DNA from: Saccharopolyspora sp. NFXS83 | Lineage (GTDB): Bacteria > Actinomycetota > Actinomycetes > Mycobacteriales > Pseudonocardiaceae | Length of the DNA stretch: 64,000 nt | Assembly: GCF_026241095.1 (NCBI RefSeq) | Contig: NZ_JAPFGB010000003.1 | Location: 1-64,000 of the forward strand | Reading direction: 5' to 3' | In this document: positions 1-43,018 of the stretch, piece by piece | Position numbering within the stretch: the first letter of the stretch is position 1 | How the letters are laid out: every line of letters begins with the position of its first letter | The notes under the pieces: generated by a model | Database searches by the model: none | What the model was told of the DNA's origin: nothing | What the model saw: the letters and a program-made list of their open reading frames with translations, nothing else | Position numbers and translations under genes: made by a program

Positions 1-1465
1 GAAAACACACGGCCTGCCCGCCACCGCCGTGGCCTGGGGCTTCTGGGAACAGCGCAGCGGCATGACCGGGCATCTGGACACCACCGACGTCCACCGGATC
101 ACCGCCACCGGGATCGTGCCACTGACCACCGAGGAAGGCCTAGGCCTATTCGACCTCGTCCGGCTCGCCGAACCGGCGCACGCCCTAGCCCTGCGGCTGG
201 ACCTCGCCGCGCTGCGGCACGCACCGGAGATACCGCCGCTGTTGAGCAGGCTGGTGCCCCGCTCCGGGTCGGTGCGGCACGCCGCCGCTGCCGAGGCGGG
301 TCCGCAGACGGGGCCGAGGCTCCTGGACCACCTGGCTCAGCTGTCCGAGAACGAGCGCGGGCCCGCGCTCGCCGACGCGATCCGGGCCGAAGCCGTGCTC
401 GTGCTCGGGCGCGTACATGAGGACGCCGCCGCTGACGACACGACGTTCCGGGACCTCGGGTTCGACTCCCTGACGGCACTCGAACTGCGCAACCGCCTCG
501 CCACGACCACCGGCGTCCGGCTCGCGCCGACCGTCGTCTTCGACCACCCCACCGCGGAAGAGCTGGCTGGACACCTGCTGCCGAAGCTGAAGCTCCGCGC
601 CGGTGCGCCGGCCGCCTCGCCACCTGAGAACGTGGACGACGGCGGCGGGGACACGGTCGTGTCGCTGTACCAGCGCGCCATCGGCGACGGACGCGTGTCC
701 GAGGCGACGGACGTGCTCGCCATGCTCGGCCGTCTGCTGCCGACCTTCGTCGGTGGCGAATCGCGGACCACGACGCGACGGCTGGCTGACGGCGACGCCC
801 GGCCCGCGGTGATCTGCCTGAGCGCCCCGATCGCACCGGTGATCTGGGATGCCTACGCGATCCTCGCGAATAACTTCCCGGAACCGCGGCGGATGTCGGC
901 GCTCGTCCCACCCGGATTCGTTGCGGGCGAACCGGTTCCGGCCGACCTCGAAGCGTTGGCGCGGGTATGCGGTGACGCCGTCCTGGCCGCGGCGGGAGTC
1001 GATCCGGTCGTGCTCATGGGGCATTCATCGGGGGGCTACCTCGCCCACGCGACGGCCGCCTACCTGGCGGGCATCGGCAGGCCACCGGCCGGGATCGTCC
1101 TCGTCGACACCTACCCCCTGGACGTGTTCGACGACGCGGAGTACGGCGAGTTCATGCGGTCCCAGATGGGGCGGCACGCACTGGCCTCCGGGCGCGAGGC
1201 GGTGTCCCTGGGGCACCAGCTCGTCGCGCAGGGCGCCTACTCGGGCTTCGTCGTGGCTTGGCGGCCGACGCCGTTGTCCGTGCCGACGCTGCTGGTCAGC
1301 GCATCCGAGTCGATGTCGGAGGCACCTCGGCCGGACTACTCCCACACCGACGCGGAGAAGGTCTGGGACCGGGTCGTCCGGGTTCCGGGGAACCACTTCA
1401 CGGTGGTCTCGGCGCACGCGCGGACGACCGCACAAGCGATCCACGAATGGTTAGAAGAACTATGA
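1..1465 (+). CDS. type I PKS, terminal module (KR end-ACP-thioesterase), 5' truncated
   Basis: The reading frame is open from base 2, so the gene enters from outside the window. It starts in the tail of a ketoreductase ([13 protein letters not shown]). An acyl carrier protein follows, with the phosphopantetheine serine in GFDSL at about base 467. A type I thioesterase ends it, with nucleophile motif GHSSGG (Ser codon at 1025) and a late GNHFTVV histidine. The thioesterase would release or cyclise the finished polyketide, so this is the last module of the assembly line. The stop overlaps a vestigial ATGA at 1462. The next gene, however, starts with a loading module, so gene order is not biosynthetic order. 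The family call is certain. KS, AT and any DH lie outside the window. Confidence 0.95.
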
Positions 1466-1476
1466 GGAGCCGTCCG

Positions 1477-19158
<17,682 letters not shown>

Positions 19159-20072: not shown

Positions 20073-21029
20073 TCAGGCAGTGCGGCCGAAGCGCAGGAAG
20101 GCGTGTGGGACTCCCGCCAGCCCCAGCTGCTCGGTCACTGCCTTGCGCATTTCTTCCAGCCGCAGCGGTTGCGTCATCACCGACACGGCGAGCCCTCCCG
20201 CAGTCGCTTCCAGCCATGCCGACTGAAGCGCCTCTCCGATGCGCACGTGGTCGATGGTGGAATCGGTTGCGCTGCACAGGACCAGCACCGAGTCGTGTTC
20301 GATGCGCGACGCCAGCAGGGACTCGTCCGGCAGCTTGGTCTGACCGGTCACCAACCCCACCGCGGGGAGTCCTTGCCGTCCCAGGGCCTTCTCCGGAATG
20401 CCCGCTCCCGGTGTGGGGTCTCCTGTCGCATCCTGCTGCACGATCCAGTGGGTGAGCTCCCGCTGATATTCGGCGTCCGCGTGCAGCACGCGGGCCGCGT
20501 ACGCCAACGAGCGAGCCACCTCCGACGCTTCGGTGGAACCGGTGATCCAGTGCATTTCGTCCGGGCCGAGCCCGGCGGCCACCCGCAACGTGTCCCGTTC
20601 GGCGTCTGTCACCGGTTGTTCGGCGAACGCGCCTCGGTAGCTGCGGCGGCGTTCGATGGCGGCGAAGCGACGCTCGTCCACCCCCGATGGCGTGGCCTCC
20701 CGGGTCGCGGTGATCTTCGCGGTCGCTGGTTCGCTCTCCGGGGCCGCCGCGCGGTCCACGTGAGGTAGCCGCCCCAGGTGGCGGACCGCCACCAGGAGAT
20801 TGGTCAACGCGGCGCCGAAGGAGATCGCCCGATCGCGGCCCTGCGGGTCGTGTTCGTCGAGCAGGTCGACCTGACGGGGGTGCAACTCGGCGACGTGGCC
20901 GCGCACCACCAACGTCCAGGGCTGGGCGTTGTGCACCGAGGGCGCCGCCGCCACTGCCTCGGACAGCACGTGTCGTTCCTGTTCCGTCCAAGGGGACGCG
21001 GCATCGCCTTGACCATCCCGATCGGCCAT
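20073..21029 (-). CDS. Acg-type nitroreductase-fold protein
   Basis: About 318 aa from ATG 21029; GTG 21032 and ATG 21053 are in-frame alternatives. GAGGAG lies a few bases before the 21032/21029 starts. The sequence has the degenerate, duplicated nitroreductase fold of the Acg (Rv2032) family: an N-terminal AAPSVHNAQPW segment, a central ERRRSYRGAF segment and a C-terminal PQ/FGR end (LRFGRTA). In mycobacteria these proteins belong to the DosR dormancy regulon. They are thought to bind or sequester FMN rather than act as efficient enzymes. Lying among USP genes, it fits the same programme here. The substrate is unknown. Confidence 0.85.
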   Translation of the reverse strand: MADRDGQGDAASPWTEQERHVLSEAVAAAPSVHNAQPWTLVVRGHVAELHPRQVDLLDEHDPQGRDRAISFGAALTNLLVAVRHLGRLPHVDRAAAPESEPATAKITATREATPSGVDERRFAAIERRRSYRGAFAEQPVTDAERDTLRVAAGLGPDEMHWITGSTEASEVARSLAYAARVLHADAEYQRELTHWIVQQDATGDPTPGAGIPEKALGRQGLPAVGLVTGQTKLPDESLLASRIEHDSVLVLCSATDSTIDHVRIGEALQSAWLEATAGGLAVSVMTQPLRLEEMRKAVTEQLGLAGVPHAFLRFGRTA

Positions 21030-21250
21030 CACCAAGGCCACTCCTCGCTCCATGAGGTGCTGGGCGTGCCGCCGACGGTGTGGAGACCGGTTTCGTTGCG
21101 TGCACGGCGGCACGGGGTTCTGCGCGCTCTGCTCGACATTGCGCCCTCCCGGCCCGGCACGCATCTCAACGGTGTGCGTCGGAAACACCGGGTGTGATCG
21201 GAAAGCTCCAGGGGATGGCGTATTCGTGGCGGTAAGGGGTGGCGGTGTCT

Positions 21251-22108
21251 TTAGGTCGACCTGACGACCAGCAGAGGACACGGTGAGCAATGGGCGAGCG
21301 CGCGACTGGTCGACCCGAGCAGCATCCCGGTGAGACCGCTGTGGCCGCGACTCCCGATCACGAGCAACTCCGCGTGTGCGGCGTGCGCGAGAAGCGCTCG
21401 GACCGGGCGGTCGTGTTCGACCGAGCGGCGGATCTCGACGTCAGGGAAGCGCTCGTCGCTTCCCGCGAGGCGTTCGGCGAGCAGGCGGTGGGCGATCGAT
21501 TCCCGCTCCCCGGGTGGCATCGTCGGTGTCAGTTCGGTCCAGTCCTCCGCCGCGACCTCGCGCCAGGTGTGCACCGCCAGCAGCGTTGTGCCGCGCAGAT
21601 CGGCCTCGTGCAACGCCCAGCGGAGCGCCGAGTCGGCTACTCCGGCCGAGTCGAGACCGACGACGACACCTCCGGACGGAGGGTTGCCGGGCGGCTCCCG
21701 CACGACGGCCACCGGGCAGGCCGCGAGCGCGATGGCGGCTTCGGCTGTCGAGCCGAAGTCGAGCTCGGTCCCGGACTCGCCGAGCCCGCGGCTGCCGACG
21801 ACGATCATGCCAGCGGCAGCGGACTCGGCGACCAACTGTCGGGCTGCGGTTCCGCGCCTGAGCTCGCAGCGGACGAGTGGGATGGGGCCGTGCCGGTTGA
21901 CGGCTTGCTCGGCGGCGTGCAGCACCTCCTCGCCGCGACGTCGCACCGCTGCCTCGCTGTCGGGAGGGAGGTCCCCGGGCAGCACCGTGAGCAGGAGTAT
22001 CGGCCATTGCCGTAGAGCGGCCTCGCGCGCGCCCCACTCCGCCGCGCGCAAAGCCGAGCTGGATCCGTCCACGCCCGCAACGATGACCGGGTTCCGCTGA
22101 ACGTCCAC
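21251..22108 (-). CDS. tandem-domain universal stress protein
   Basis: 285 aa from a GTG start. There are two USP domains: residues ~6-140 (VIVAGVDGSSSALRAAEW, then GSRGLGESG) and ~145-285 (VVVGLDSAGVADSALRW, then IGSRGHSGLTGMLLGSTSRA). The second domain keeps the full GxxGx9G(S/T) ATP-binding loop; the first is degenerate there. Tandem USPs are soluble nucleotide-binding proteins tied to hypoxia and dormancy in actinobacteria. It lies between the nitroreductase and another USP on the same strand, but the gaps of 221 and 103 bases suggest separate promoters. Confidence 0.9.
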   Translation of the reverse strand: MDVQRNPVIVAGVDGSSSALRAAEWGAREAALRQWPILLLTVLPGDLPPDSEAAVRRRGEEVLHAAEQAVNRHGPIPLVRCELRRGTAARQLVAESAAAGMIVVGSRGLGESGTELDFGSTAEAAIALAACPVAVVREPPGNPPSGGVVVGLDSAGVADSALRWALHEADLRGTTLLAVHTWREVAAEDWTELTPTMPPGERESIAHRLLAERLAGSDERFPDVEIRRSVEHDRPVRALLAHAAHAELLVIGSRGHSGLTGMLLGSTSRALAHCSPCPLLVVRST

Positions 22109-22211: not shown

Positions 22212-22724
22212 TCAGCCGAGCACGGAGTCGTGATCCGGCGCTGGTCCCCACGCCCGGTCTTGTTCGTCCGGGGCGAGCTCCACGTCGTGCGGAACGATCA
22301 CTACCGGGCAGCGGGCACGGCGAAGGCACCCTCCCGCGATGTGGCCCATCGTGGGATTGATGCCGCGGTGATGGCGACCATCGCCGAGGACGAGCATGGC
22401 TGCCTCGGCCGAGAGTTCCGAGAGGACCTCGACGGTCTGTCCTTCGAGGAGCTCCGTGCGCAGTCCCGGGGGCAGCTGTTCACCCACGCACGCGTGGACC
22501 GCTTTCGAGAGCTCCCGCCGGTACTGCTCGTGCATGTGGTGCGGGGCCAGTTCGGGGTTCATCAGCAGAGGGCCCGGTCCGGAGAGGACGGCGTGCCGCG
22601 ACCACACCATGACAGCGCGCACTTCTCGGTGGCGTTGCCGTGCCTCGCGCACGGCCCAGCGAAGGGCACGTGCGCTGCTCTCGGACCCGTGGACGCCGAC
22701 GACGAGCGGCTTCTCGGCGCACAT
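22212..22724 (-). CDS. single-domain universal stress protein
   Basis: 170 aa from ATG 22724, with GAGGAGG six bases upstream. The N-terminus is a clear USP strand (LVVGVHGSESSARALRWAV). A C-terminal RARCPVVIVPHD segment matches the last USP strand. The glycine loop reads GDGRHHRGINPTMGHIAGG, which lacks the usual GxxGx9GS spacing. ATP binding is therefore doubtful, and this may be a structural, non-nucleotide-binding USP. After the domain there is an acidic tail of about 25 residues. Confidence 0.85.
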   Translation of the reverse strand: MCAEKPLVVGVHGSESSARALRWAVREARQRHREVRAVMVWSRHAVLSGPGPLLMNPELAPHHMHEQYRRELSKAVHACVGEQLPPGLRTELLEGQTVEVLSELSAEAAMLVLGDGRHHRGINPTMGHIAGGCLRRARCPVVIVPHDVELAPDEQDRAWGPAPDHDSVLG

Positions 22725-23882: not shown

Positions 23883-24698
23883 TCAGCGCACCACGGCGAC
23901 CGGGCATCTCGCGTGGTGCAGCACTCCGACGGCGACCGAGCCGAGGAACAGCCCGTTGAACCCACCGGTGCCGCGGTGGCCCACCACCAGCAGCGGAGAC
24001 TCACCGGCCGCGTCGACGAGGGCGGGGACCGGGTGCCCGCGCACGGCGCGGGTGCGCGTGTGGAGTCCCGAGTACCGGTCGCGCCATTCCGTGAGCTGGG
24101 CGTTGAGGGAGTTCTCGATGCGAGTCTGCACTTCGTCCTGATCGGGTGGCGGCAGGGGCGGCGCGAGCAGCCCCTGCTCGTGCCAAGCCTGCACGGCGAG
24201 CACTTCGACTCCGCGGGAGGCTGCGGCGTCGAACGCGAAACGCAGCACCGCGTGAGCATTGGCCGCGTCGTCCACCCCGACGACGACCGGACCCCCGAGA
24301 TCGACTCCGCCCGCGCGCACGACCACGACCGGCCCCACCGCGTGGGTGGCGACCTCCGAACTGACCGAGCCCAGCAGCGCGTCGGCGAATCCACCGAGCC
24401 CGCGCGATCCCAGCACCATCAACTGGGCGGTCTCCTCGCAGCGAAGCAGCTGTTCGATCGGATGCCCGGTGAGGATCTCCTCGCGCACCTCGACTTCGGG
24501 CGCTTGGGCGCGGCACTGCTCGGCGACCGCGTGCACGCTCTTTCCCGCGAAAGCCGAGCGATTCGGGTCGTCGTTGACCAGCACCAGGTGCAGGCGGGCG
24601 CCACGACGCCGGGCTTCCCGTGTCGCCCAGGCCGCGGCTTCGGCGGAATGGCCGGAACCGTCGACTCCGGCCACGACCGCGTGCTCGGGTTGTGCCAT
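23883..24698 (-). CDS. tandem-domain universal stress protein
   Basis: 271 aa. Domain 1 begins AVVAGVDGSGHSAEAAAWA and carries LGSRGLGGFADALLGSVSSE. Domain 2 begins PVVVGVDDAANAHAVLRFA and carries VGHRGTGGFNGLFLGSVAVG. Both nucleotide loops are intact. It converges with the HAD gene, with 19 bases between the stops. The architecture is the same as Rv2005c/Rv2623-type DosR-regulon USPs. Confidence 0.92.
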   Translation of the reverse strand: MAQPEHAVVAGVDGSGHSAEAAAWATREARRRGARLHLVLVNDDPNRSAFAGKSVHAVAEQCRAQAPEVEVREEILTGHPIEQLLRCEETAQLMVLGSRGLGGFADALLGSVSSEVATHAVGPVVVVRAGGVDLGGPVVVGVDDAANAHAVLRFAFDAAASRGVEVLAVQAWHEQGLLAPPLPPPDQDEVQTRIENSLNAQLTEWRDRYSGLHTRTRAVRGHPVPALVDAAGESPLLVVGHRGTGGFNGLFLGSVAVGVLHHARCPVAVVR

Positions 24699-26968: not shown

Positions 26969-27007
26969 GCGACTCGGCCCGGCACGCGGTGCCCGAACAC
27001 CTCCCCG

Positions 27008-27021
27008 GGGACTCTCGGCCC
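27008..27021 (+). promoter_or_regulatory. DosR/DevR-like box upstream of USP
   Basis: GGGACTCTCGGCCC is a perfect match to GGGNCNNNNGNCCC and lies 88 bases before ATG 27110. Chance matches are possible at this GC content, but its position agrees with the other boxes in the island. Confidence 0.45.
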
Positions 27022-27109
27022 TGTCGGTCCGTGTGACGCAGTGCGTGTAATCGGGTGCCGTGCAAGGCGACGCCGGGACCGGCGAACGATGTGGCGGAGG
27101 TGCAGCGCG

Positions 27110-27982
27110 ATGGCGCGGACGGTGGTTGTCGGGATCGATGGTTCGCCGTCGGCTATCCGCGCCGCTCGCTGGGCGGTTCGGGAGGCACGGCGGCGGTCGG
27201 CACAGCTGCACCTGCTGCACTGCGACGTCAAGTCGCTCGTCGTCGTGCCGGACATGCCGGTCGTGCCACCGCGGCAGACGTTTTTGGAGAGCGTCCGTGA
27301 GGAAGCCGAGGAATCCCTGCGGCTGGCGAAGGAGCAGGTGGGCGAAGTCGCACCGGACGTAGTCGTGGAGACCGAGTTCCGCATGGAGGCTCCGGCGAGC
27401 GGGCTCGTCGAGCAGTCCCGGCGAGCGGATCTGGTGGTGCTGGGCAGCCGTGGTCTCGGAGGGTTCACCGGGCTGCTGATCGGTTCGGTGGCGATCGCCG
27501 TGGCCGCACACGCCCGCAGCCCGGTCGCGGTGGTCCGCGGAGAGCACGATCCGGACCAGACCGATCCGGTCGTCGTCGGCGTCAGCGGTTCCGGACACGA
27601 TGCCGCCGCGCTGGGCTACGCCTTCGAGCTCGCCGCCGCACGGGAGGTGCCCCTGCGCGCGGTCCACGCCTGGCACTCCCTGGCGTGGGATGAGGCGCGC
27701 TTGCGGAACCGGATCGACGAGGGGTGGGCCGTGGTCCAGTCCGATGAGGAACGCCTCCTGACGGAGGTGCTGGCGGGCTGGTCGGACGAACACCCCGACG
27801 TCGTGGTGCAGCGCTTCGCACCGCTGAACAAACCCGCGCGGGCCTTGCTCACGCATGCGGAGCAGGCACAGCTCGTCGTGGTCGGAGCCCGGGGGCGGGG
27901 AGGTTTCACCGGGCTGGTGCTGGGGTCCACGAGCCAACAACTGGTGCAGCACTCACCGTGCCCGGTGGTGATCGCGCGGTGA
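27110..27982 (+). CDS. tandem-domain universal stress protein
   Basis: 290 aa from ATG 27110, with GGAGG about nine bases upstream. Domain 1: TVVVGIDGSPSAIRAARWAV and GSRGLGGFTGLLIGSVAIAV. Domain 2: PVVVGVSGSGHDAAALGYAF and GARGRGGFTGLVLGSTSQQL. Both ATP loops are intact. It is the closest intact relative of the broken USP at 19645-20046. It has a perfect DosR-like box upstream. It ends with the typical HSPCPVVIAR strand. Confidence 0.93.
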   Translation: MARTVVVGIDGSPSAIRAARWAVREARRRSAQLHLLHCDVKSLVVVPDMPVVPPRQTFLESVREEAEESLRLAKEQVGEVAPDVVVETEFRMEAPASGLVEQSRRADLVVLGSRGLGGFTGLLIGSVAIAVAAHARSPVAVVRGEHDPDQTDPVVVGVSGSGHDAAALGYAFELAAAREVPLRAVHAWHSLAWDEARLRNRIDEGWAVVQSDEERLLTEVLAGWSDEHPDVVVQRFAPLNKPARALLTHAEQAQLVVVGARGRGGFTGLVLGSTSQQLVQHSPCPVVIAR

Positions 27983-31848: not shown

Positions 31849-33864
31849 CTACCGATGCGGAGACCCTGGGTTCGGGCCTGTGATGCCGCGTCGCAGTTCG
31901 CCGGGCCGGTGGCGTTCTGGTTCGTGGTAGCGGTCGTGGGAGGACGGCAGCTGCCAGGGCACGCTGGTGATCATGACCCCTGGTTCGAACCGCAGCCGGG
32001 TCTTCAGTCGCAGCGCGCTCTGGTTGTGCAGCGCGTTGTCCCACCAGCGGCCGAAGACGTACTCCGGGATGTAGACGATGACCACGTCACGCGGGCTTGT
32101 TCTCCGAAGGTCGCGGACGTACTGCACGACGGGCCGAGTGATCTCCCGGTAAGGCGATTCGAGCACCTTGAGCGGGACGGGTATCTCGTTGCGCTGCCAC
32201 GTCTGCTCGAGGAGTTGGGTATCGGCGTCCTCGACGTTCACGGTGATCGCGGTGAGATCGTCCGGGCGGGTCGCCCGCGCGTAGGCCAGGGCGCGCAGGA
32301 CCGGCTTGTGGACGTTGGAGACCAGTACCACCGCGTGCACGCGGGCTGGGAACATGGTGTCCTCGTCCTCCGGCTCGAGTTCCTGCTGCACCAGGTCGTA
32401 GTGGCGGCGGATGCCGCGCATCAGCACGAACAACACCGGTACGACTATCACGACCAGGTAAGCACCGTGGGAGAACTTCGTGACCAGCACGATCGCCAAC
32501 ACCAGACCGGTCATCGCCGCCCCTGCCGTGTTGATCAGCCTCGCGCGGTACTGGCGTCGGCGTTTCGCATTGTCGGTGGTCGAGGCCAGTTCGCGGTTCC
32601 AATGCCGCACCATGCCCGCCTGGGCGAGGGTGAACGACGTGAACACGCCGAGGATGTAGAGCTGGATGAGGCGGGTGGTCGATCCCTCGAACAACCAGAT
32701 CAAGGCTCCTGCGGCGGACGCAAGCAGGACGATCCCGTTCGAGAAGGCCAGTCGATCTCCGCGAGTGTGCAGCTGTCGCGGCATGTAGCGGTGCCGTGCC
32801 AGCAGCGAGGTCAGCAACGGAAACCCGCTGTATGCGGTGTTCGCGGCCAGGACCAGGATCAGCGTTGCCGTGGCCTGCACGTAGTAGAAGCCCGGACTGG
32901 CCGTCCCGCCGAACACCGCCGCCGCGATCTGGGCGATCACGGTGCGCTGCGGTTCGTTCGCGCAGTCGCCAGGTAGACCGATCAGGTCGCAGGGGTTCTC
33001 CGCGTAGTGCACTCCGCTGATCAACGCCAACGCGGTGACCCCTGCGAACATCGTGATCGCGATCAATCCGGTCGCGGCCATCGTGGCCGCCGCGTTCTCG
33101 GCTTTGGGCCGGCGAAAGGCCGGGACGCCGTTGGAGATCGCTTCCATACCGGTCAGGGCAGTGCAACCCGAGGCGAACGTCCGCAGCAACAGGAACAGCA
33201 GCGCGAAGGTGCTCCACGAAGAATGCTCCGGCCGAACATCGTACGCAGCACTCTGGGCTACCGGGGCGGCCCCGACCAACGTCTCTACCAACCCGGTAGC
33301 GATCATGACCAGTACACCGGCGATGAACAGGTAGCTCGGCAAAGCGAAGATGCGGCCCGACTCGCGCATCCCGCGCAAGTTCAACGCCGTGAGCACGATG
33401 ACGAACCCGATGCCGAGTTCCACCCGGTACGGGTTCAGCTCGGTGAACGCGGAGATGATGTTGTCCACTCCCGCCGACACTGACACCGACACGGTGAGCA
33501 CGTAGTCGACCATCAGCGCACCGGCCACGACCAGCCCGGCTGAGGGGCCGAGGTTTTCCGAGGCCACAGCGTAGGAACCGCCTCCGGACGGATAAGCACG
33601 CACGACCTGCCGGTAGGAGATCGTCACGACAGCCAGGAGAAGCATTACCGCCGCGCCCGCCCACCAAGCCAGGTGCAGCACTGCCACCCCGCCCAAAGCG
33701 AGTACCAGGAGAATCTCCTGGCTCGCATAGGCGACGGAGGAGAATGGATCGCTGGCGAACAGGGGAAGCGCCAGCCGCTTCGGCAACAACGTCTCGGCGA
33801 GCTGGTCGCTGCGCACCGGCCGCCCCACGACCAACCGCTTCAACCACGTCGCAGCCCCCTGCAC
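31849..33864 (-). CDS. APC-superfamily permease, KimA-like
   Basis: 671 aa from GTG 33864. About twelve transmembrane helices fill residues ~35-490, starting after the amphipathic LFASDPFSSVAYASQEILLV segment typical of the KimA/YdaO group. That group includes high-affinity potassium importers. A cytosolic domain of about 180 residues (ARVHAVVLVSNVHKPVLRAL onward) has a USP-like alternating strand pattern, as in other members. Potassium is the best-known substrate of the group, but I cannot assign it here. No c-di-AMP riboswitch pattern was seen upstream. No SD is strong. The genes around it are stress related. Confidence 0.85.
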   Translation of the reverse strand: MQGAATWLKRLVVGRPVRSDQLAETLLPKRLALPLFASDPFSSVAYASQEILLVLALGGVAVLHLAWWAGAAVMLLLAVVTISYRQVVRAYPSGGGSYAVASENLGPSAGLVVAGALMVDYVLTVSVSVSAGVDNIISAFTELNPYRVELGIGFVIVLTALNLRGMRESGRIFALPSYLFIAGVLVMIATGLVETLVGAAPVAQSAAYDVRPEHSSWSTFALLFLLLRTFASGCTALTGMEAISNGVPAFRRPKAENAAATMAATGLIAITMFAGVTALALISGVHYAENPCDLIGLPGDCANEPQRTVIAQIAAAVFGGTASPGFYYVQATATLILVLAANTAYSGFPLLTSLLARHRYMPRQLHTRGDRLAFSNGIVLLASAAGALIWLFEGSTTRLIQLYILGVFTSFTLAQAGMVRHWNRELASTTDNAKRRRQYRARLINTAGAAMTGLVLAIVLVTKFSHGAYLVVIVVPVLFVLMRGIRRHYDLVQQELEPEDEDTMFPARVHAVVLVSNVHKPVLRALAYARATRPDDLTAITVNVEDADTQLLEQTWQRNEIPVPLKVLESPYREITRPVVQYVRDLRRTSPRDVVIVYIPEYVFGRWWDNALHNQSALRLKTRLRFEPGVMITSVPWQLPSSHDRYHEPERHRPGELRRGITGPNPGSPHR

Positions 33865-34031
33865 ACCTGGAGCATAGGGTCACCGCCCGCATCGACGCTG
33901 CTCAGAACACTCCCCCGTGAGGCCCTGCGCTGCTCGGGACGGGGAGCCCGACTTTCCGCCGCCCGTAATCCGGAGTGAGCCTCCCCGGAGTCACGTGAGG
34001 TAACGCGCTGGACGCGTCCGTGCGCCCACGG

Positions 34032-34045
34032 GGGCCGATAGGCCC
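34032..34045 (+). promoter_or_regulatory. DosR/DevR-like box upstream of orphan pup
   Basis: GGGCCGATAGGCCC is a perfect match to GGGNCNNNNGNCCC with clean dyad ends, 72 bases before ATG 34118. The distance matches that of the other boxes (58-88 bases). Confidence 0.45.
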
Positions 34046-34117
34046 TGCACGCCAGCAGTCGGGCGGCGGCACTCTCGACTTCGGAATCGGACCGCGAAGC
34101 GGCGGACGGAGTGCGTG

Positions 34118-34315
34118 ATGCGTCGAGGCGAACGCAAGCACCGGCATGACGATCGAGATGTCGAGACAGGAGTTCCCGATGTCGGCGCATCGGGGCCTGA
34201 GCGGCGGGAGGGGCTCGACGATGCCACCGAGTCCGTGCTCGACGACATCGATGCACTCCTCGACGAGGAAGCCGAAGAATTCGTGCGTTCCTACGTGCAG
34301 AAGGGCGGCCAGTAG
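34118..34315 (+). CDS. pup: prokaryotic ubiquitin-like protein Pup, orphan copy
   Basis: 65 aa from ATG 34118 (a GTG precedes it in frame at 34115), with GGAG six bases upstream. The basic, disordered N-terminus (RRGERKHRHDDRD) differs from usual Pup. From residue 28 on it is canonical: ERREGLDDATESVLDDIDAL, then LDEEAEEFVRSYVQKGGQ. The middle is the helix that binds the Mpa/ARC coiled coils. The C-terminal GGQ needs deamidation by Dop before PafA can ligate it to target lysines. Normally pup sits in a dop-pup-prcB-prcA cluster. None of those genes is nearby, so this is probably a second, separately regulated Pup. A perfect DosR-like box upstream hints at hypoxic induction. Confidence 0.92.
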   Translation: MRRGERKHRHDDRDVETGVPDVGASGPERREGLDDATESVLDDIDALLDEEAEEFVRSYVQKGGQ

Positions 34316-34446: not shown

Positions 34447-34480
34447 AAGGGGTCGCTGGTTCGAACCCAGTTGCGCCCAC
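34447..34480 (+). other. tRNA 3'-end fragment, probable integration (att) site
   Basis: GGTCGCTGGTTCGAACCCAG followed by TTGCGCCCAC is a T-arm (GCTGG/CCAGT around TTCGAAC) plus the 3' half of an acceptor stem. No D-arm or 5' acceptor half is found upstream, so it is not a functional tRNA. On the minus strand it translates to GATGFEPATP, the well-known readthrough of tRNA T-arms. A tyrosine integrase starts about 90 bases downstream, as in many tRNA-integrated elements. Confidence 0.65.
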
Positions 34481-34567
34481 TTTGGTTGCCTGACCAGTGA
34501 AAACGGGGTTTCCGTCGAGGGGTGCTCCGCTCTGCGCAGGGCCACAGCGAGCCCTTAATTTTGCCCC

Positions 34568-35095
34568 ATGCGGGAGCAGTGGGACGGCCTGATCAGGGAC
34601 TACGGCAAGGCGCTGAAGCGCGAGAACAAGTCCCCCAAGACCATCGAGCTCTACGTATCGACGGCGACTTGGTTCGCAGACTGGCTCGCAAAGCAAGACC
34701 GCCTTGGCGACATCGCTGACGTCACCCGGGCCGACATCGGTGACTGGATCACGGAACTGCTGGAGACCCGCAAACCCGCGACCGCCAACGGCCGATTCCG
34801 GGCGCTACAGCAGTGGTTCCACTTCCTGGTCGACGAGGACGAGATCACTGAATCGCCGATGCAGCGGATGAAGCCTCCGCAGATCCCCGAGGTCCTGGTG
34901 CCGGTCGTTCCGTTGGCCACCGTCAAGGCGCTGCTCAAGCAGTGTGAGGGCAAGGATCTGATCAGTCGCCGCGACGCCGGGATCATCCGGCTGCTCATCG
35001 ATACCTGCGGGCGCCTGTCGGAGGTCGCCGGTCTCAAGGCCGACGACCTCGACTTGGAACAGGGCCAGGTGCTGGGCCACGACGAGGGTGACGCG
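34568..35095 (+). pseudogene. tyrosine recombinase (phage-type integrase), 3'-truncated
   Basis: From ATG 34568 the frame has the N-terminal SAM-like core-binding domain (KSPKTIELYVSTATWFADWL). The start of the catalytic domain follows, with the first catalytic arginine in DTCGRLSEVAGLKADDL. After about residue 175 the protein becomes unrelated low-complexity sequence and never reaches the HxxR or Tyr motifs. It cannot recombine DNA. It lies next to the tRNA fragment, so it is probably the relic of an integrated element. Confidence 0.8.
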
Positions 35096-35653
35096 GGCCA
35101 TGAGGTTGTCCCCGGTGGCACCGAAAAGGACACAGCGAGACCGCCACCCGTCAAGTCCGGTACTCCGACCCCTCCCCCAGCCGCCAGCACCGGTATGCGC
35201 TCATCGAGGAGCACGACGCAGAACAACGCCGTGAACTGCCGTTCGTGCAGTTCCATACCTCACGATTATTCATGGGTGGGTTGAAATCCCTCCGGAACCA
35301 GAGGGCGGGTCTTCAGCCGGAAGCGACACTTGCCCTGACCTTGGCTGCAGCGCTCGTCGGCGGCCAGGGAAAACGGAGGTGAGCACAGCGCTCCGTGGAA
35401 GGCAGTCGGACGCTGTCTGGAGGGTCCCCGCATGGGCGGGGTTCGTGTCCTGCTCTTGGTGCTCGTTGTTGTGCGATGCTGCGTTGGTGCCGCGCATCGG
35501 CTGGTCTATCCGGGTGACGTTTCCCGTGCGTTGAACAAGTTCTTTCTGTGAGCCCTTAACTGTGGCCCTCACACTCACCGCTGACCTGGAAGTCCCTGGT
35601 CACGCACACCGCTGGGCCGCTGATGCCTGACAAGCACGGACTCGCTGGCCGAG
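35096..35653. other. gene-poor relic region after the broken integrase
   Basis: No complete gene is visible. A plus-strand stretch at about 35155-35275 reads RYSDPSPSRQHRYALIEEHD, like the middle of a real protein, but has no recognisable start. It then runs into an IS30 end at 35294-35327. The remainder, up to the CBS gene, holds nothing I can identify. Confidence 0.5.
35294..35327. mobile_element. solo IS30-type terminal repeat (relic)
   Basis: The 34 bases match the terminal repeat of the intact IS30 element at 46020-47348 at 30 positions; the differences are three adjacent bases and one later A to G. The flanking TTGAA also matches the sub-terminal sequence. No transposase is attached, so this is the remaining end of a deleted copy of a related element. 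Confidence 0.75.
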
Positions 35654-35959
35654 GTGGCCACAACGATGACCGACCACCACGTGGGTTCGCTTGCGGTGGT
35701 CGATGGCAACATCATCTTCGGCATCGTTTCAGAACGCGACATCACACGAGCCGTCGCGCAGCAGGTATCTCCGCAACACGCGACGGCCGCAGCCTTCGCA
35801 TCACGACACGTCACCTCCGCCAAGCTGGACGACGACACGGTCGACATCACCCGGCGGATGCTCGATACCGGCGTCCGGCACATGCCGGTGGTCACGGGAA
35901 GCACCGTCGTAGGGGTCGTGTCCATGCGCGATCTCCTCGCTGTCGAGGCGTGGACCTGA
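35654..35959 (+). CDS. CBS-domain protein, shortened at the N-terminus
   Basis: 101 aa from GTG 35654. It carries most of a CBS pair: VGSLAVVDGNIIFGIVSERD, then VDITRRMLDTGVRHMPVVTG. In-frame codons upstream still read CLTSTDSLAE, which belongs to the first CBS strand, but they are cut off by a TGA. The true start has therefore been lost or frame-shifted. CBS pairs of this size (Hrp1/Rv2626c type) bind adenosyl ligands and are DosR-induced in mycobacteria. It converges with the GH65 gene. It may be a pseudogene. Confidence 0.6.
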   Translation: MATTMTDHHVGSLAVVDGNIIFGIVSERDITRAVAQQVSPQHATAAAFASRHVTSAKLDDDTVDITRRMLDTGVRHMPVVTGSTVVGVVSMRDLLAVEAWT

Positions 35960-36007: not shown

Positions 36008-38443
36008 CTACGGCGTGTGGCTGACGTCGGCGCGGGCGGGGACGCCGTGCTCCAAGGAGAACCGCACGGCCGAACCGCCCCGCAGCAGCGCCTCCCGTCC
36101 GCCACAAGCGCAGCTGAACGCGGTGCGGACTGAGCTGAGCCCGACGCGCACCACGGCCGTGCGACCGGTGATCGTGATGGAAAGGGGGTGGCCCCGGTAG
36201 AGGAGTTCGAGCTTCAGCTCGCCGAGCTCCTGAGGCCAGCACGGGTTGAGGTGCAGCGCGCCGTCGCGGGCATCGATTCCGGCGAAGCAGCGTTGGAGCA
36301 GATCGATGGTGCCGGTCATAGCGGCGAGGTGGATGCCTTCGCTGGTGCTGCCGCCTCGGGTGCCGTGGACGTCGGAGTCCAGGGCGCGGTGGAAGTGCTC
36401 CCAAGCTTGGTGGCGGTTGGCCCTGGCCAGAACCCACGCGTGCACCACCGCGCTGAGGGTGGATCCGTGGCTGGTGCGTCGCAGGTAGTGCTCGATCGTT
36501 TCGGGGATGCGGTGCGGCGGGAACGGGTAGCCGAGGCGGTCGAGCACGTCGCGCAGCTCTTCGGCCGACAACAGGTAGAACAGCATGAGCACGTCGGCTT
36601 GTTTGGAGGCTTGGTACCGGTTGGGGTCGTCGCCTTCGGCTTCCAGGATGCGGTCCAGCCGGCGGATGTCGCCGTAGCGGTCGTGGTAGGCGCGCCAGTC
36701 GAGTTCGGCCAGTTCGGAGTAGCCCTCGAACTGGTCGGGGATGCCGATGTGGAAGGGCACGAACAGCTTGCGGGACAGCCGGTCCCAGTGGTCGATGTCG
36801 GTGCTGTGCAGGCCGAGTTCGGTGGCCAGTTCGCGGCGCCGGTGCGCCGAGAGCATGTCGAGCACGGTCGACGCCGTCCGGCACAGCCAGGCCAGCATGA
36901 CGTTGGTGTAGGCGTTGTTGTTGATTCCCGGTGCCGCGGCACCGGGGTAGGCGGTGTGGTACTCGTCGGGGCCGACGACGCCTTCGACGACGTACCGGCC
37001 CCGTGCCGGGTCGTAGCGGGCGAGCCTGGCGAGGAACCGGGTGGTGTCCAAGATCAGTTCCGCGCCGAAGTCGTTGAGGAACGCCTCGTCCGCGGTCGAT
37101 TGGTAGTAGCGCCAGGTGTTGTGCGCGATCGCGATGCCGAGGTGTCGTTGGAGGCGGGTGTGGTCGGGCGACCAGTGCCGGGAGCGCGGGTTGAGGTGCA
37201 GCGCTTGGCTTTCCTCCCTGCCGTTGCTGCCGCTCTGCCAGGGGAACATCGCGCCGGTGCTTCCCGCGAGGCGCGCGGCTCGGCGGGCCTGGGGGAGCCG
37301 GCGATAGCGGTACATCAGCAGCGCGCGGGATTCGTCGGGGGCGCGCAACGTGAGCACGGGCAGCACGAACAGCTCGTCCCAGAAGACGTGCCCGCGGTAG
37401 GCTTCTCCGTGCAGTCCTCGTGCGGGAACCCCGACGTCGAGGTCCGCGGTGTTCGGCGAGATCGTCTGTATCAGGTGGAGCACGTGCAGTCGCACCTTGC
37501 GCCGGATCTCCGCCGAGCCCCGAACGTCGAAGTGGAAGGTTCGCCACGAGCGTGCCCAGGCCGCTTGGTGCGAGCGCAGCAGCGCGTCGAAGTCGGCCGC
37601 TTCGGCGCACAGCTCTGCGGACTCGGCGGCCGGTTCGGAGATCGCGGTGTCGCGGGAGGTGTGCAGCGCGACCACTTTCTCCACTTGGACGTGTTGGCCC
37701 GGTCCCGCGGCCACGGCGAACTCATGGGCGATCAGGTCCTCTTCGGCGATGACGGTTCGCAGCGGCGACAGTTCATGGCCGTCGAGCCGGACCCGTGCGC
37801 GCGCTGCTTCGGCGACCGAGATGCGGGACTGGGCGGTGCGGGCGCTCAAGAGCACGGTTTCGGGTGAGAGCTCGCGCGTGCCGAAGTCGGTCAGGTGCGG
37901 ACGTTCCACTTCTTCGTAGCGCGCGACACCCGAGTTGCGCACGCGGCCGTCCAGCCCGCTGCGGAAGGTGATGGTGCTGGCGTGATCTTCGGGGATCAGC
38001 GTCGTCTCCAGCGCGGCGAGATGTGGCAGTCCCATGTGGACGATGCGGCGCTGGAGCAGGGTGGTGGTCCTGCCGTCGTCGTCGCGGAACCGGCAGCGCC
38101 GCCGGAGCAGCGCGTGTTCGAGGTCCAGCTCGACCTCGTGTTCCACGAGCGAGAATCGGCGAAGGTCGAACCAGGCGCCGTCGTCGAAGCGAAAGGTCAG
38201 CGGCAACCAGTTCGGCAGGTTCACCATCGATTCGTTCGTGACTTCCTGCCCGGCGACCTCGGCTGTTCGGCGGTCGTAGCAGCCCGCCACGTACGTGCCG
38301 GGGTAGTGCACGTCGTCGCGCACCGCTTCCGGCGCGGCTCCGCGCGTGGCGAAGTACCCGTTCCCGAGCGTGCACAACGCTTCGCGCCGTCCCTCGTCAT
38401 CGAGGTCAAGGCCGCTGAACCGCCACAGGTGCTCACCGGTCAT
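36008..38443 (-). CDS. glycoside hydrolase family 65 phosphorylase (maltose/trehalose/kojibiose type)
   Basis: 811 aa from ATG 38443. The N-terminal beta-sandwich starts LCTLGNGYFATRGA. The (alpha/alpha)6 barrel has the substrate-binding FWDELFVLPVL and the general-acid glutamate in VVGPDEYHTAYPG. The phosphate-binding loop is HGSTLSAVVHA and the C-terminal sheet ends near VSHTP. Length and motifs fit inverting phosphorylases that split a disaccharide with phosphate to beta-glucose 1-phosphate. The HAD protein at 23102 would be the partner mutase (Rv3401/Rv3400 pair). It starts 7 bases after the stop of an upstream USP and is surely co-transcribed with it. The exact disaccharide cannot be told. 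Confidence 0.9.
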   Translation of the reverse strand: MTGEHLWRFSGLDLDDEGRREALCTLGNGYFATRGAAPEAVRDDVHYPGTYVAGCYDRRTAEVAGQEVTNESMVNLPNWLPLTFRFDDGAWFDLRRFSLVEHEVELDLEHALLRRRCRFRDDDGRTTTLLQRRIVHMGLPHLAALETTLIPEDHASTITFRSGLDGRVRNSGVARYEEVERPHLTDFGTRELSPETVLLSARTAQSRISVAEAARARVRLDGHELSPLRTVIAEEDLIAHEFAVAAGPGQHVQVEKVVALHTSRDTAISEPAAESAELCAEAADFDALLRSHQAAWARSWRTFHFDVRGSAEIRRKVRLHVLHLIQTISPNTADLDVGVPARGLHGEAYRGHVFWDELFVLPVLTLRAPDESRALLMYRYRRLPQARRAARLAGSTGAMFPWQSGSNGREESQALHLNPRSRHWSPDHTRLQRHLGIAIAHNTWRYYQSTADEAFLNDFGAELILDTTRFLARLARYDPARGRYVVEGVVGPDEYHTAYPGAAAPGINNNAYTNVMLAWLCRTASTVLDMLSAHRRRELATELGLHSTDIDHWDRLSRKLFVPFHIGIPDQFEGYSELAELDWRAYHDRYGDIRRLDRILEAEGDDPNRYQASKQADVLMLFYLLSAEELRDVLDRLGYPFPPHRIPETIEHYLRRTSHGSTLSAVVHAWVLARANRHQAWEHFHRALDSDVHGTRGGSTSEGIHLAAMTGTIDLLQRCFAGIDARDGALHLNPCWPQELGELKLELLYRGHPLSITITGRTAVVRVGLSSVRTAFSCACGGREALLRGGSAVRFSLEHGVPARADVSHTP

Positions 38444-38449
38444 CCGCCA

Positions 38450-39286
38450 TCACCGGGAGTCCGAAGTGCCGGGCACCACGGCGACCGGGCAGGGGGACCG
38501 GTGCAGAACTCCGCGGGACACCGACCCCAGCAGCATCTCGGAGAAACCGCCCGCACCGCGGTGACCCACCACCAGCAGGCGTGCGCCGCTGGCGGCCTCC
38601 GCGAGCGCGTCGATCGGGTTCATGGAACTGGTGACCCCTCGCAAGACGAGGTCCGGGTGCTCCGGTCCGGTGCCCGCCAGTTCCTCAGCGAGCAGCCGCC
38701 CCGCGCGTCCGAGCAGTTCCTCGCGGTCCGGGTGCTCGTAGGGACCGGGGATGAAGTAGGCGTCCGGCGATGCCTGCACCGCCATCACGCCGCAGCGCAG
38801 TGCCTCGGCGGTGCGGCAGGCGAACTCCAGCGCCCGCCGTGCGGCAGCCGACCCATCGATTCCGACCACGACGGTCTCGTGCGTCACGCGTTCGCCCTCG
38901 TCGCGAACGACAATCGTCGGGCAGGCTGACCGCATCGCCACTCCGAGTGCCACCGAGCCGAGCAGAGCGTCGTGGAAAGCTCCGTGTCCACGTGATCCGA
39001 CCGCGAGCAGCGTTGAGCGTCGCGAGATCTCCACCAGGCGCGGCACCGGGTGACCTGTCGCCGTCCGTGTGGTAACTCGAAGGCCGGGACGATGGCGCCG
39101 GCACCGGGAGGCGAGGTCCCCAAGCCATTCCGGGACGGCCTCGTCCGGGTGCGCTTCGGCCTCCACCGCGACCAACAGCAGATCATCTCCATCGCGGAGG
39201 GCGTTCGCGCACACCCACTCAACGGCGCGTTCCGAGGGGGCCGCGTTGTCCACCCCTACCGCGCACTGTCGCCCACCGACCGCCAT
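38450..39286 (-). CDS. tandem-domain universal stress protein, leading an operon with GH65
   Basis: 278 aa from ATG 39286, with GGAGG six bases upstream. Domain 1 (CAVGVDNAAPSERAVEWVCA, GSRGHGAFHDALLGSVALGV) and domain 2 (TVVVGIDGSAAARRALEFAC, GHRGAGGFSEMLLGSVSRGV) both keep the nucleotide loop. The GH65 start follows its stop by 7 bases. No convincing DosR-like box was found in the 190-base divergent gap to the phosphate transporter. Confidence 0.92.
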   Translation of the reverse strand: MAVGGRQCAVGVDNAAPSERAVEWVCANALRDGDDLLLVAVEAEAHPDEAVPEWLGDLASRCRRHRPGLRVTTRTATGHPVPRLVEISRRSTLLAVGSRGHGAFHDALLGSVALGVAMRSACPTIVVRDEGERVTHETVVVGIDGSAAARRALEFACRTAEALRCGVMAVQASPDAYFIPGPYEHPDREELLGRAGRLLAEELAGTGPEHPDLVLRGVTSSMNPIDALAEAASGARLLVVGHRGAGGFSEMLLGSVSRGVLHRSPCPVAVVPGTSDSR

Positions 39287-39476
39287 CAGCCACCTCCGTA
39301 CGTCCCTGCCAGGCTGGCAAAGCAGCCGTGCCACGGCATGTCGAAGTACCGGGGGCGGCGGGGACGACGCGGGATGACGAGTTGCGTCCGATCACGCGAA
39401 CGCCGATCGTCGAACGCACCACCTCGGTCTGAACGGGCCTGGTGCGGAGAGCCGGAGGAGGGGCGTTCCGCGGCGA

Positions 39477-41217: not shown

Positions 41218-41275
41218 TTCCAGTTCAACGTTCCCCGGTGCGATGCTCACGGGAGTTCCTCTCAGAGGAGGCTTC

Positions 41276-42160
41276 ATGGTCAGTGGGCAGTTCGGTTCCG
41301 TCGTCGTGGGTTTCGACGGGACGTCGGGATCGCGGCGGGCGGTGACGTGGGCGTGCCGTGAAGCGGAACTCCGCGGCCGGCGGGTGCAACTCGTGCGTGC
41401 CTTCTCGGCACCGTTGGAAGAACTCACAAGGATCCACCTGCCGGCCGAATCCGTCGACCTCGGTCCGCTGCGCGCCAGCGCGGAACGAGAATCGGACGAC
41501 GTCGTCCAGGAGTGCGTCCGCGAACGGCCGGAGCTGGAGATCACGACCGATGTCCGGCTCGGGCACCCCGCGACCGTGCTGCACGACGCCGCCGAACGCG
41601 GCGAGATGCTGGTGCTCGGTTCTTCGGAGCACGGTCGTTTGCACCAAGTCCTGCTGGGTTCTACCGCTAATGAGCTGATGCGGAAATCACCCGTGCCGCC
41701 GGTGGTCGTCGTCCGAGGAGAGGGCGACGGGCCGCGCGGGAAGGTCGTGGTCGGGGTCGACGGCTCGCGGGCGAGTGCAGGTGCGGTGGGATTCGCCTTC
41801 GACCACGCCGCGCGGCACGGGGCGGACGTCGTCGCCGTGCTCGCGTGGGACGAGCTCCCCCGTGATGCGATTCCGCCCGCAGGGGACTGGAAGCTGGACT
41901 GGACGGACATCACGCGCTCGTGCGAGCGCGTGATGTCCGAGTCGCTGGCGGGTTGGCGCGAGCGGTACCCGGACGTCGACGTGCATCCGGAGGTCACCAC
42001 GACGGAGTTGCCGACGGAGATCCTGTTGCGCCACGCGGTCGGCGCGGACCTCGTCGTCGTCGGTCGGCACGGGCGGTCCTTGGTGCGTGCCACGGTGTTG
42101 GGTTCCACCAGCCACGCGATCGCGCACTACGCGCCGTGCCCGGTCGCGGTCGTGCACTGA
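41276..42160 (+). CDS. tandem-domain universal stress protein
   Basis: 294 aa from ATG 41276, with GAGGAGG five bases upstream. Domain 1: SVVVGFDGTSGSRRAVTWAC, with a weakened loop GSSEHGRLHQVLLGSTANEL. Domain 2: VVVGVDGSRASAGAVGFAFD, with GRHGRSLVRATVLGSTSHAI. It is the last intact USP of the island. It lies 51 bases from the converging PPK2 gene. Confidence 0.92.
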   Translation: MVSGQFGSVVVGFDGTSGSRRAVTWACREAELRGRRVQLVRAFSAPLEELTRIHLPAESVDLGPLRASAERESDDVVQECVRERPELEITTDVRLGHPATVLHDAAERGEMLVLGSSEHGRLHQVLLGSTANELMRKSPVPPVVVVRGEGDGPRGKVVVGVDGSRASAGAVGFAFDHAARHGADVVAVLAWDELPRDAIPPAGDWKLDWTDITRSCERVMSESLAGWRERYPDVDVHPEVTTTELPTEILLRHAVGADLVVVGRHGRSLVRATVLGSTSHAIAHYAPCPVAVVH

Positions 42161-42211: not shown

Positions 42212-43018
42212 TCACAACGTGGCCGCGTGGTCCGGCACGTACTGGAATCGCTCCCGCGGCGGCCGGTGCTGTCGGCTCGCGGCGACCTGCCGCGGCAGCG
42301 CGATCCTGGGGACGTCGAGATCGGAGTAGGGGAGTGCGGACAGCAGATGCGCGATCATGTTGATCCTGGCGCTGCGCTTGTCCTCGCTGTCGACCAGGAA
42401 CCAGGGCGCCTCGTCGGTATCGGTGGCCGCGAGCATCTCGTCGCGGGCGACCGAGTAGTCGTCCCAGCGCAGCGCCGATTCGACGTCGACCTGGGACAGC
42501 TTCCACCTGCGCAGCGGGTCTTGCGCCCGGCGGTGCAGTCGCCGGAGCTGTTCGGCGCGGCTCACGGAGAACCAGTACTTGCGCAGCAGCACGCCGTCGT
42601 CGACGAGCAACCGTTCGAACACGGGGCACTGCCACAGGAACCGCCGGTACTCCTGTTCGTTGCAGAACCCGAGGACTCGTTCGACGCCCGCGCGGTTGTA
42701 CCAACTCCGGTCGAACAGCACGATCTCGCCGGCCGCGGGTAGTCGTTCGACGTAACGCTGGAAGTACCACTGGGTGCGTTCGCGCTCGTCGGGGACGGAC
42801 AGCGCCTCGATCCGCGCGCCGCGTGGGTTGAGGTGCTCGATGACCCGCTTGATCGCGCCACCCTTGCCCGCCGCGTCCCTGCCTTCGAACACCACGACGA
42901 CCCGCTGCCGCTCGCGGCGCACCCACTCCTGGAGCTTGGCCAGTTCCGTTTGCAACCGCAGCAGCTCCGCGCGATAGGTCGGCGCGGCCAGGCGCGGTTC
43001 GTCCGACACGTCGATCAT
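42212..43018 (-). CDS. ppk2: polyphosphate kinase 2 (PPK2)
   Basis: 268 aa from ATG 43018. Walker A is [16 protein letters not shown]. The lid/Walker B region is [18 protein letters not shown], followed by [17 protein letters not shown] and [15 protein letters not shown]. These are the full PPK2 signatures for transfer between polyphosphate and nucleoside di- or monophosphates. A single domain suggests class I or III, but the substrate preference cannot be read. Its ATG overlaps the stop of the upstream alcohol dehydrogenase (ATGA), so the two are translationally coupled. Confidence 0.93.

Follow-up and report, generated by a model that had tools for sequence, protein, structure and literature searches.

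Pupylation is usually pictured as a pathway in which Pup, its ligase and its depupylase each exist in a single form. The 64,000-nucleotide stretch of Saccharopolyspora sp. NFXS83 analyzed here (the window) raises the question of what a second, solitary pup gene, named pup2 below, is doing among genes for stress proteins. The reading adopted with moderate confidence is that pup2 encodes a dormancy-induced Pup which would belong to a DevR/OsdR (DosR-type) low-oxygen regulon and would share the single ligase and the single depupylase of the genome.

The gene was read from an ATG at 34118 to the end of the ORF at 34315 on the forward strand (65 aa), with a GTG at 34115 as alternative start and a ribosome-binding-site-like GGACGGAG at 34104..34111 on the same strand, just 5' of the start. 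Its product scored 60.5 bits against the Pfam Pup profile PF05639 (cut-off 27), aligning with profile positions 9-69 of 69, and terminated in FVRSYVQKGGQ, with the Gly-Gly-Gln ending typical of Pup (Gly-Gly-Gln/Glu). Solved Pup chains matched the last 42 residues (e.g. 3m91_B, E 4.6e-11, residues 24-65), and the helical region bound by PafA/Dop and by Mpa appeared conserved, aligning with 3m91, 4bjr and 7oxy. These entries are taken to show Pup in structures with Mpa, PafA and Dop, the partners of some being partly assumed. A full Pup with GGQ end and canonical helix, as the first-pass annotation had described it, was thus confirmed. The N-terminus, called unusual and basic in that annotation, proved only modestly basic: the net charge of the first 12 residues was +2, against means of +0.76 in 29 distinct canonical Pups and +1.84 in 32 second Pups. 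Between Pup2 and Pup1 of the same genome, 24 of the C-terminal 40 residues were identical and the first 25 residues differed almost throughout; close to the C-terminus, Pup1 has FVRAY at the site of FVRSY in Pup2, by which peptides of the two can be distinguished. When pup2 was compared between two species of the window's genus, only silent changes were found after codon 36, whole-gene dN/dS was about 0.33, and the N-terminus was variable even at this distance.

Two Pup matches were found in the genome, pup2 and a pup on contig C13. The latter sits between dop and prcB, with pafA 5 kb beyond, in a standard dop-pup-prcB-pafA locus; there, the position and size of a 258-aa ORF mark it as putative prcA, and a 615-aa ORF is presumably Mpa, judging by its terminal motif GQYL. 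The Pup_ligase family had two members in the whole genome, Dop and PafA, both on contig C13, so that Pup2 is without enzymes of its own. Around pup2, none of the 20 ORFs scanned with Pfam between 20 and 45 kb was a dop, pafA, mpa or proteasome gene. The C13 pup lies beside dop/pafA and proteasome genes, whereas pup2 does not. Both the isolation of pup2 and its status as a second Pup, for which the first-pass annotation had proposed looking for a standard locus elsewhere, were upheld, and the possibility that pup2 is the only pup, merely relocated, was ruled out by the locus on C13.

Pup was detected in 293 of 297 Pseudonocardiaceae genomes, and at least two matches were present in 27 of the 297 (counted from the table). 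A second Pup occurred in 18 of 22 genomes of Saccharopolyspora genus g26 and in 2 of 6 genomes of the window's own genus, which is grouped apart from g26, the other four being devoid of it. Outside the family, none was found in 391 class genomes (394 were sampled, three of them Pseudonocardiaceae), and a separate scan, in which the best 15 candidates at most were scored per genome, gave the same result. The single-protein scan of named genomes returned no relative. Likewise, tblastn (E 0.01) gave no Pup2 match in 72,556 plasmid and 50,697 phage records; a plasmid or phage origin was rejected on this ground, for those collections only, since canonical-like Pups were missing from them too.

Forty stretches were fetched, two of which (L052, L085) proved canonical, leaving 38 second-pup loci including the window. 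Two of the matches, L050 (G025) and L076 (G268), were fragments and not working genes; G268, a Saccharopolyspora, carried six Pup matches, one of them a fragment, a local family expansion. A tree built on 64 columns, its inner order unsure, compared 36 second Pups with 29 canonical ones. It united 34 of the second Pups on a branch with support 92/82 and 33 of these on the following one (97/88), next to the canonical Pups of the family. All second Pups thus clustered save two, L063 and L066, and a single origin of all 36 did not emerge. These two outliers (G175 and G200, respectively) scored 28 and 40 bits, stood far apart from the others in the tree and had Pup-like C-termini, VERYVQRGGE and VEQYVQKGGQ, but a different helix. 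Across several genera, second Pups shared an M-R/H-Q-E/D-K/R start and had lost the glycine run of most canonical Pups. The 32 first collected ended in GGQ (18) or GGE (14), an ending which the collecting pattern required, and three of the four added later ended in NGQ. Three Saccharopolyspora proteins (L054, L055 and L069, from G091 and G216) were intact except for the diglycine, with KNGQ replacing KGGQ at the end. Taken jointly with its recruitment into the DevR/OsdR regulon, descent of pup2 from a paralogous Pup lineage confined to Pseudonocardiaceae, as far as sampled, is on balance probable.

The surroundings of pup2 were rich in stress-related functions. To its left, the reverse strand carried a nitroreductase-family ORF (20073..21290; PF00881, E 6.1e-11) and three universal stress proteins (Usp, PF00582) at 21251..22108 (E 3.2e-45), 22212..22724 (E 3.7e-16) and 23883..24698 (E 3.3e-44). 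A fourth Usp ORF lay on the forward strand (27041..27982, E 6.3e-55; its true start is probably downstream of 27041), and an amino acid permease (31849..33864, reverse strand; AA_permease_2, E 4.7e-28) was the divergent neighbor of pup2. To the right were a CBS-domain ORF (35654..35959, forward; PF00571, E 3.3e-16), a family 65 glycoside hydrolase (GH65; 36008..38443, reverse; PF03632, E 5.4e-123), two further Usp ORFs (38450..39334, reverse, E 2e-38; 41243..42160, forward, E 4.6e-43) and polyphosphate kinase 2 (PPK2; 42212..43018, reverse; PF03976, E 5.7e-101). A phosphate transporter, an alcohol dehydrogenase and an AAA_33 protein were also among the 20 scanned ORFs. With six Usp ORFs, the nitroreductase, PPK2, GH65 and others, the Pfam scan bore out the DosR-regulon-type surroundings claimed earlier.

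The same-genus relative G120 had the same divergent pup2-permease pair, and G101 had kept the GH65 neighbor (76% identical), with no DNA match to the pup2-permease segment. A segment of about 1.17 kb (34458-35631) was present in the window and missing from the same place in G120. It held a tRNA-3'-end-like stretch, noted by eye (ARAGORN reported no tRNA), and a 238-aa integrase piece with N-terminal Pfam domains only, and resembles what is left of an integrated element, situated just 3' of pup2. Delivery of pup2 by this integrase remnant is unlikely because G120 has pup2 without the insertion. Much of the left end of the window was filled by a single very long open frame (1258-19158, 5966 codons), taken for a putative modular synthase.

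Neither dop nor prcB was found at any of the 38 second-pup loci. Usp ORFs, searched with a profile made from the Usps of these loci, lay within 8 kb of 13 of the 38 second pups, as against none of 76 dop/prcB-linked controls, which were mostly from other families than the window's and therefore make a weakened control. The control loci, resting on the best 80 of 522 in the alignment scan, numbered 82 in all, 76 with dop or prcB; among the remaining six, Usp ORFs were near three (L118, L127 and L153), which were Saccharopolyspora second pups again. No partner gene common to all second-pup loci was found. Besides pup itself, the widest clusters were stress proteins (11 loci, or 13 of 38 after the profile search) and P-type ATPases (9 loci). 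Other neighbors in relatives included PPDK, nitroreductase and P-type ATPases with cupredoxin or hemerythrin domains, as well as trehalose phosphatase-HAD, phosphoribosyltransferase-dienelactone hydrolase and GNAT-CoA ligase. The likening of these neighbors to the DosR regulon is partly general background and partly drawn from PMC5069765.

A perfect palindrome 72 bases before the start of pup2 had been reported in the first-pass annotation as a sign of DosR control. The palindrome was there (GGGCCGATAGGCCC, 34032-34045, 72 bases 5' of the ATG). As evidence, the bare pattern GGGNCNNNNGNCCC is weak because it is common: the 6.9-Mb genome contains 269 perfect copies, 260 bp would include one by chance in about 1% of cases, and a reversed control pattern occurs 640 times. 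The generic palindrome was therefore dropped as proof, although the window has an excess of it, 8 copies vs 2.5 expected. A published description fared better. The accessible text of PMC5069765 gives AGGGCCGATCGGCCCT as the OsdR consensus of Streptomyces, with support from gel shifts, and tabulates predicted sites, 23 distinct ones of which were made into a matrix. With this matrix, the DevR/OsdR-type box GGGGCCGATAGGCCCT at 34031..34046, the first base of which lies 87 bases 5' of the ATG, ranked top of all window positions with 16.97, the runner-up having 14.95; among 4000 200-bp pieces drawn at random from the related loci, 0.1% scored as high.

Similar boxes preceded related second pups, S. 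hirsuta and S. indica being among the species that have one. The 1% threshold was passed by 10 of 32 second-pup upstream regions vs 0 of 41 canonical ones (Fisher P 1e-4), and a threshold of about 2% by 13 of 32 vs 1 of 41; perfect copies of the pattern of the first-pass annotation within 260 bp were found at 10 of 32 vs 1 of 41. These statistics treat related loci as independent, the ten positives falling, as judged from the tree by eye, into about six lineages, and all 32 promoters were used because alignment A1 (16 rows) had been picked partly by box. None of four further second pups scored had a box, which brings the count to 10 of 36, with the box missing at the 1% threshold in 26 (fragments L050 and L076 were left out). 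Where loci were anchored on the box, it started 87-129 bases before the start codon in 13 of 14, and its flanks differed between loci, close pairs excepted. The score was only 9.5 (1.65%) in G120. Among the 12 scored second pups near stress proteins, six were below the 1% threshold and three (L049, L072 and L082) below that of 2%. High-scoring boxes were also present at stress-protein genes, the exact 16-base consensus lying just before one of these in L081; in the window, a weaker box (GGGGACTCTCGGCCCT, 27007..27022; matrix score 9.72, eighth in the window) lay upstream of the Usp ORF at 27041..27982. It is worth adding that three g26 second pups (L057, L067 and L074), with the start MRQEKNRQRP or MRQEKNHQRP, shared a different neighborhood with several common ORFs and had no box at the matrix threshold, although L067 had a perfect generic pattern. 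This subgroup may answer to another signal.

A candidate regulator was found on contig C56, where a 583-aa kinase adjoins a 235-aa response regulator. Their best solved relatives were the DosT/DevS GAF domain (6.6e-54) and DevR 3c3w (8.3e-85), respectively, and by homology the genome would thus possess a DevS-DevR pair. Three DevR homologues were counted in this genome, and all 31 genomes searched had one at E below 1e-60, including four of the window's genus without pup2, so having the regulator does not set pup2 genomes apart. No perfect box was seen in the approximately 35 kb read around the devSR genes. In S. indica, a devR homologue 59% identical to the DevR of the window's genome followed pup2 on the same strand, its start about 260 bases further on; this was the case at one of the 38 loci (the named duplicate L127 apart). 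A text-pattern search of the loci for response regulators gave none and missed the S. indica one, which was found by protein search. The earlier proposal of a DosR-type stress Pup was strengthened, at the level of sequence, as regards its DosR link by the OsdR matrix, the recurrent box, the Usp neighborhoods, the DevS-DevR pair and the S. indica devR.

The box, the neighborhood, the regulator, the second copy and the single enzyme set are all seen directly in the DNA. From them we infer that pup2 was recruited into the DevR/OsdR regulon in the present genome as well as in a branch of Saccharopolyspora, and that low oxygen would act through DevS on DevR, which would bind the box at 34031-34046 and induce the pup2 transcript together with the stress-protein island. 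The single Dop would then deamidate Pup2, and the single PafA would attach it to lysines, as for Pup1. Since the C-terminal part that binds Dop and PafA is kept along with GGQ, both enzymes should accept Pup2, and its ligation appears likely. According to the available portions of the respective papers, the N-terminal part of Pup takes no part in Dop binding (PMC8599861), and in Pup, an intrinsically disordered protein, the helix associates with the coiled coil of Mpa and the unstructured N-terminus is fed into the pore (PMC6476560). The first 20-25 residues, which serve for Mpa threading in ordinary Pup, are diverged in Pup2, and Mpa may for this reason engage Pup2 conjugates at a rate of their own. 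A changed fate of Pup2-tagged proteins is a reasoned guess. It is conceivable, if rather doubtful, that the cell owns two tags, an ordinary Pup and an oxygen-limitation Pup, attached by the same ligase and read differently by Mpa, each through its own N-terminus. If so, the proteins tagged under oxygen limitation would form a dormancy pupylome, whether put in storage, degraded slowly or targeted in a special way, and bacteria would have a counterpart to the use of several ubiquitin-like modifiers.

Other explanations can account for part of these data. Pup2 might merely enlarge the Pup supply in dormancy, with the same targets and fate and an N-terminus free to drift. The retained C-terminal module, the N-terminal variability between two species of one genus and the ordinary Pup machinery as the only one present all agree with this idea, but pure drift would not keep the N-terminal features (the common start and the loss of the glycine run) found in several genera; a simple effect of dosage is unlikely, while still deserving serious attention. 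Much less probable is that pup2 is a bystander of a box serving the divergent permease, or that both genes are served. The box does lie between both start regions, 72 bases from pup2 and 167 bases from the permease GTG, and the same pair exists in G120; its distance to pup2, however, is kept in relatives of which the other neighbors differ.

A competitor or decoy, binding Mpa or PafA under stress and slowing ordinary degradation instead of tagging, seems marginally more improbable again. It would suit the divergence of the N-terminus, the part which the accessible text of PMC6476560 describes as used for threading, and sits poorly with the conserved enzyme-binding region and with the GGQ/GGE end of the 32 second Pups first collected, an end imposed by the collecting pattern and replaced by NGQ in three of the four later ones. 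Finally, pup2 could be a decaying duplicate preceded by a chance box. Its patchy presence in the window's genus (2 of 6), the abundance of the generic pattern in the genome and the two fragmentary second-pup matches elsewhere (L050, L076) are compatible with decay, but the frame is intact, its C-terminal part has only silent changes, second Pups form one supported group and the box recurs, which leaves this the most improbable of the explanations considered. The preferred reading therefore remains that of a dormancy-induced Pup predicted to be under DevR/OsdR control.

If a dormancy regulator that senses oxygen did control a second Pup, regulation would extend to the tag itself, and research on the Pup-proteasome pathway would meet that on the DevR/OsdR regulon, from which it has been separate. 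Material for comparison is available in 26 further genomes in which Pup was matched more than once. No DosR/OsdR-controlled or dormancy-specific Pup was found in the literature searched, which included the accessible parts of PMC8007912 and PMC7947786 and was exclusive of subscription papers and preprints; within these sources, the DevR/OsdR-linked Pup appears new, two pup genes per genome being already known.

Compared with the canonical actinobacterial Pup of dop-pup-prcBA loci, Pup2 is alike in length, C-terminal module, GGQ end and a Pfam score above cut-off, and differs by its diverged N-terminus, separate tree branch, box, stress-protein surroundings and the absence of dop, pafA and proteasome neighbors. 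It thereby departs from the rule, given in the available text of a 2008 survey, that pup is invariably beside the PafA gene (PMC2588565). With the mycobacterial DevR/DosR and Streptomyces OsdR regulons, it has in common the box type, the stress proteins, nitroreductase and other neighbors and the DevS-DevR pair; the membership of pup2 is a prediction. The accessible text on these regulons (PMC5069765) names no Pup gene and reports that transcripts of proteasome genes, among others, were lowered when osdR was mutated in S. coelicolor. A pair of pup genes in one organism, a PupQ and a PupE, has been described before (PMC3511204), in the available text of which their location, control and lineage are not given; in the genome studied here, both Pups are of the PupQ type.
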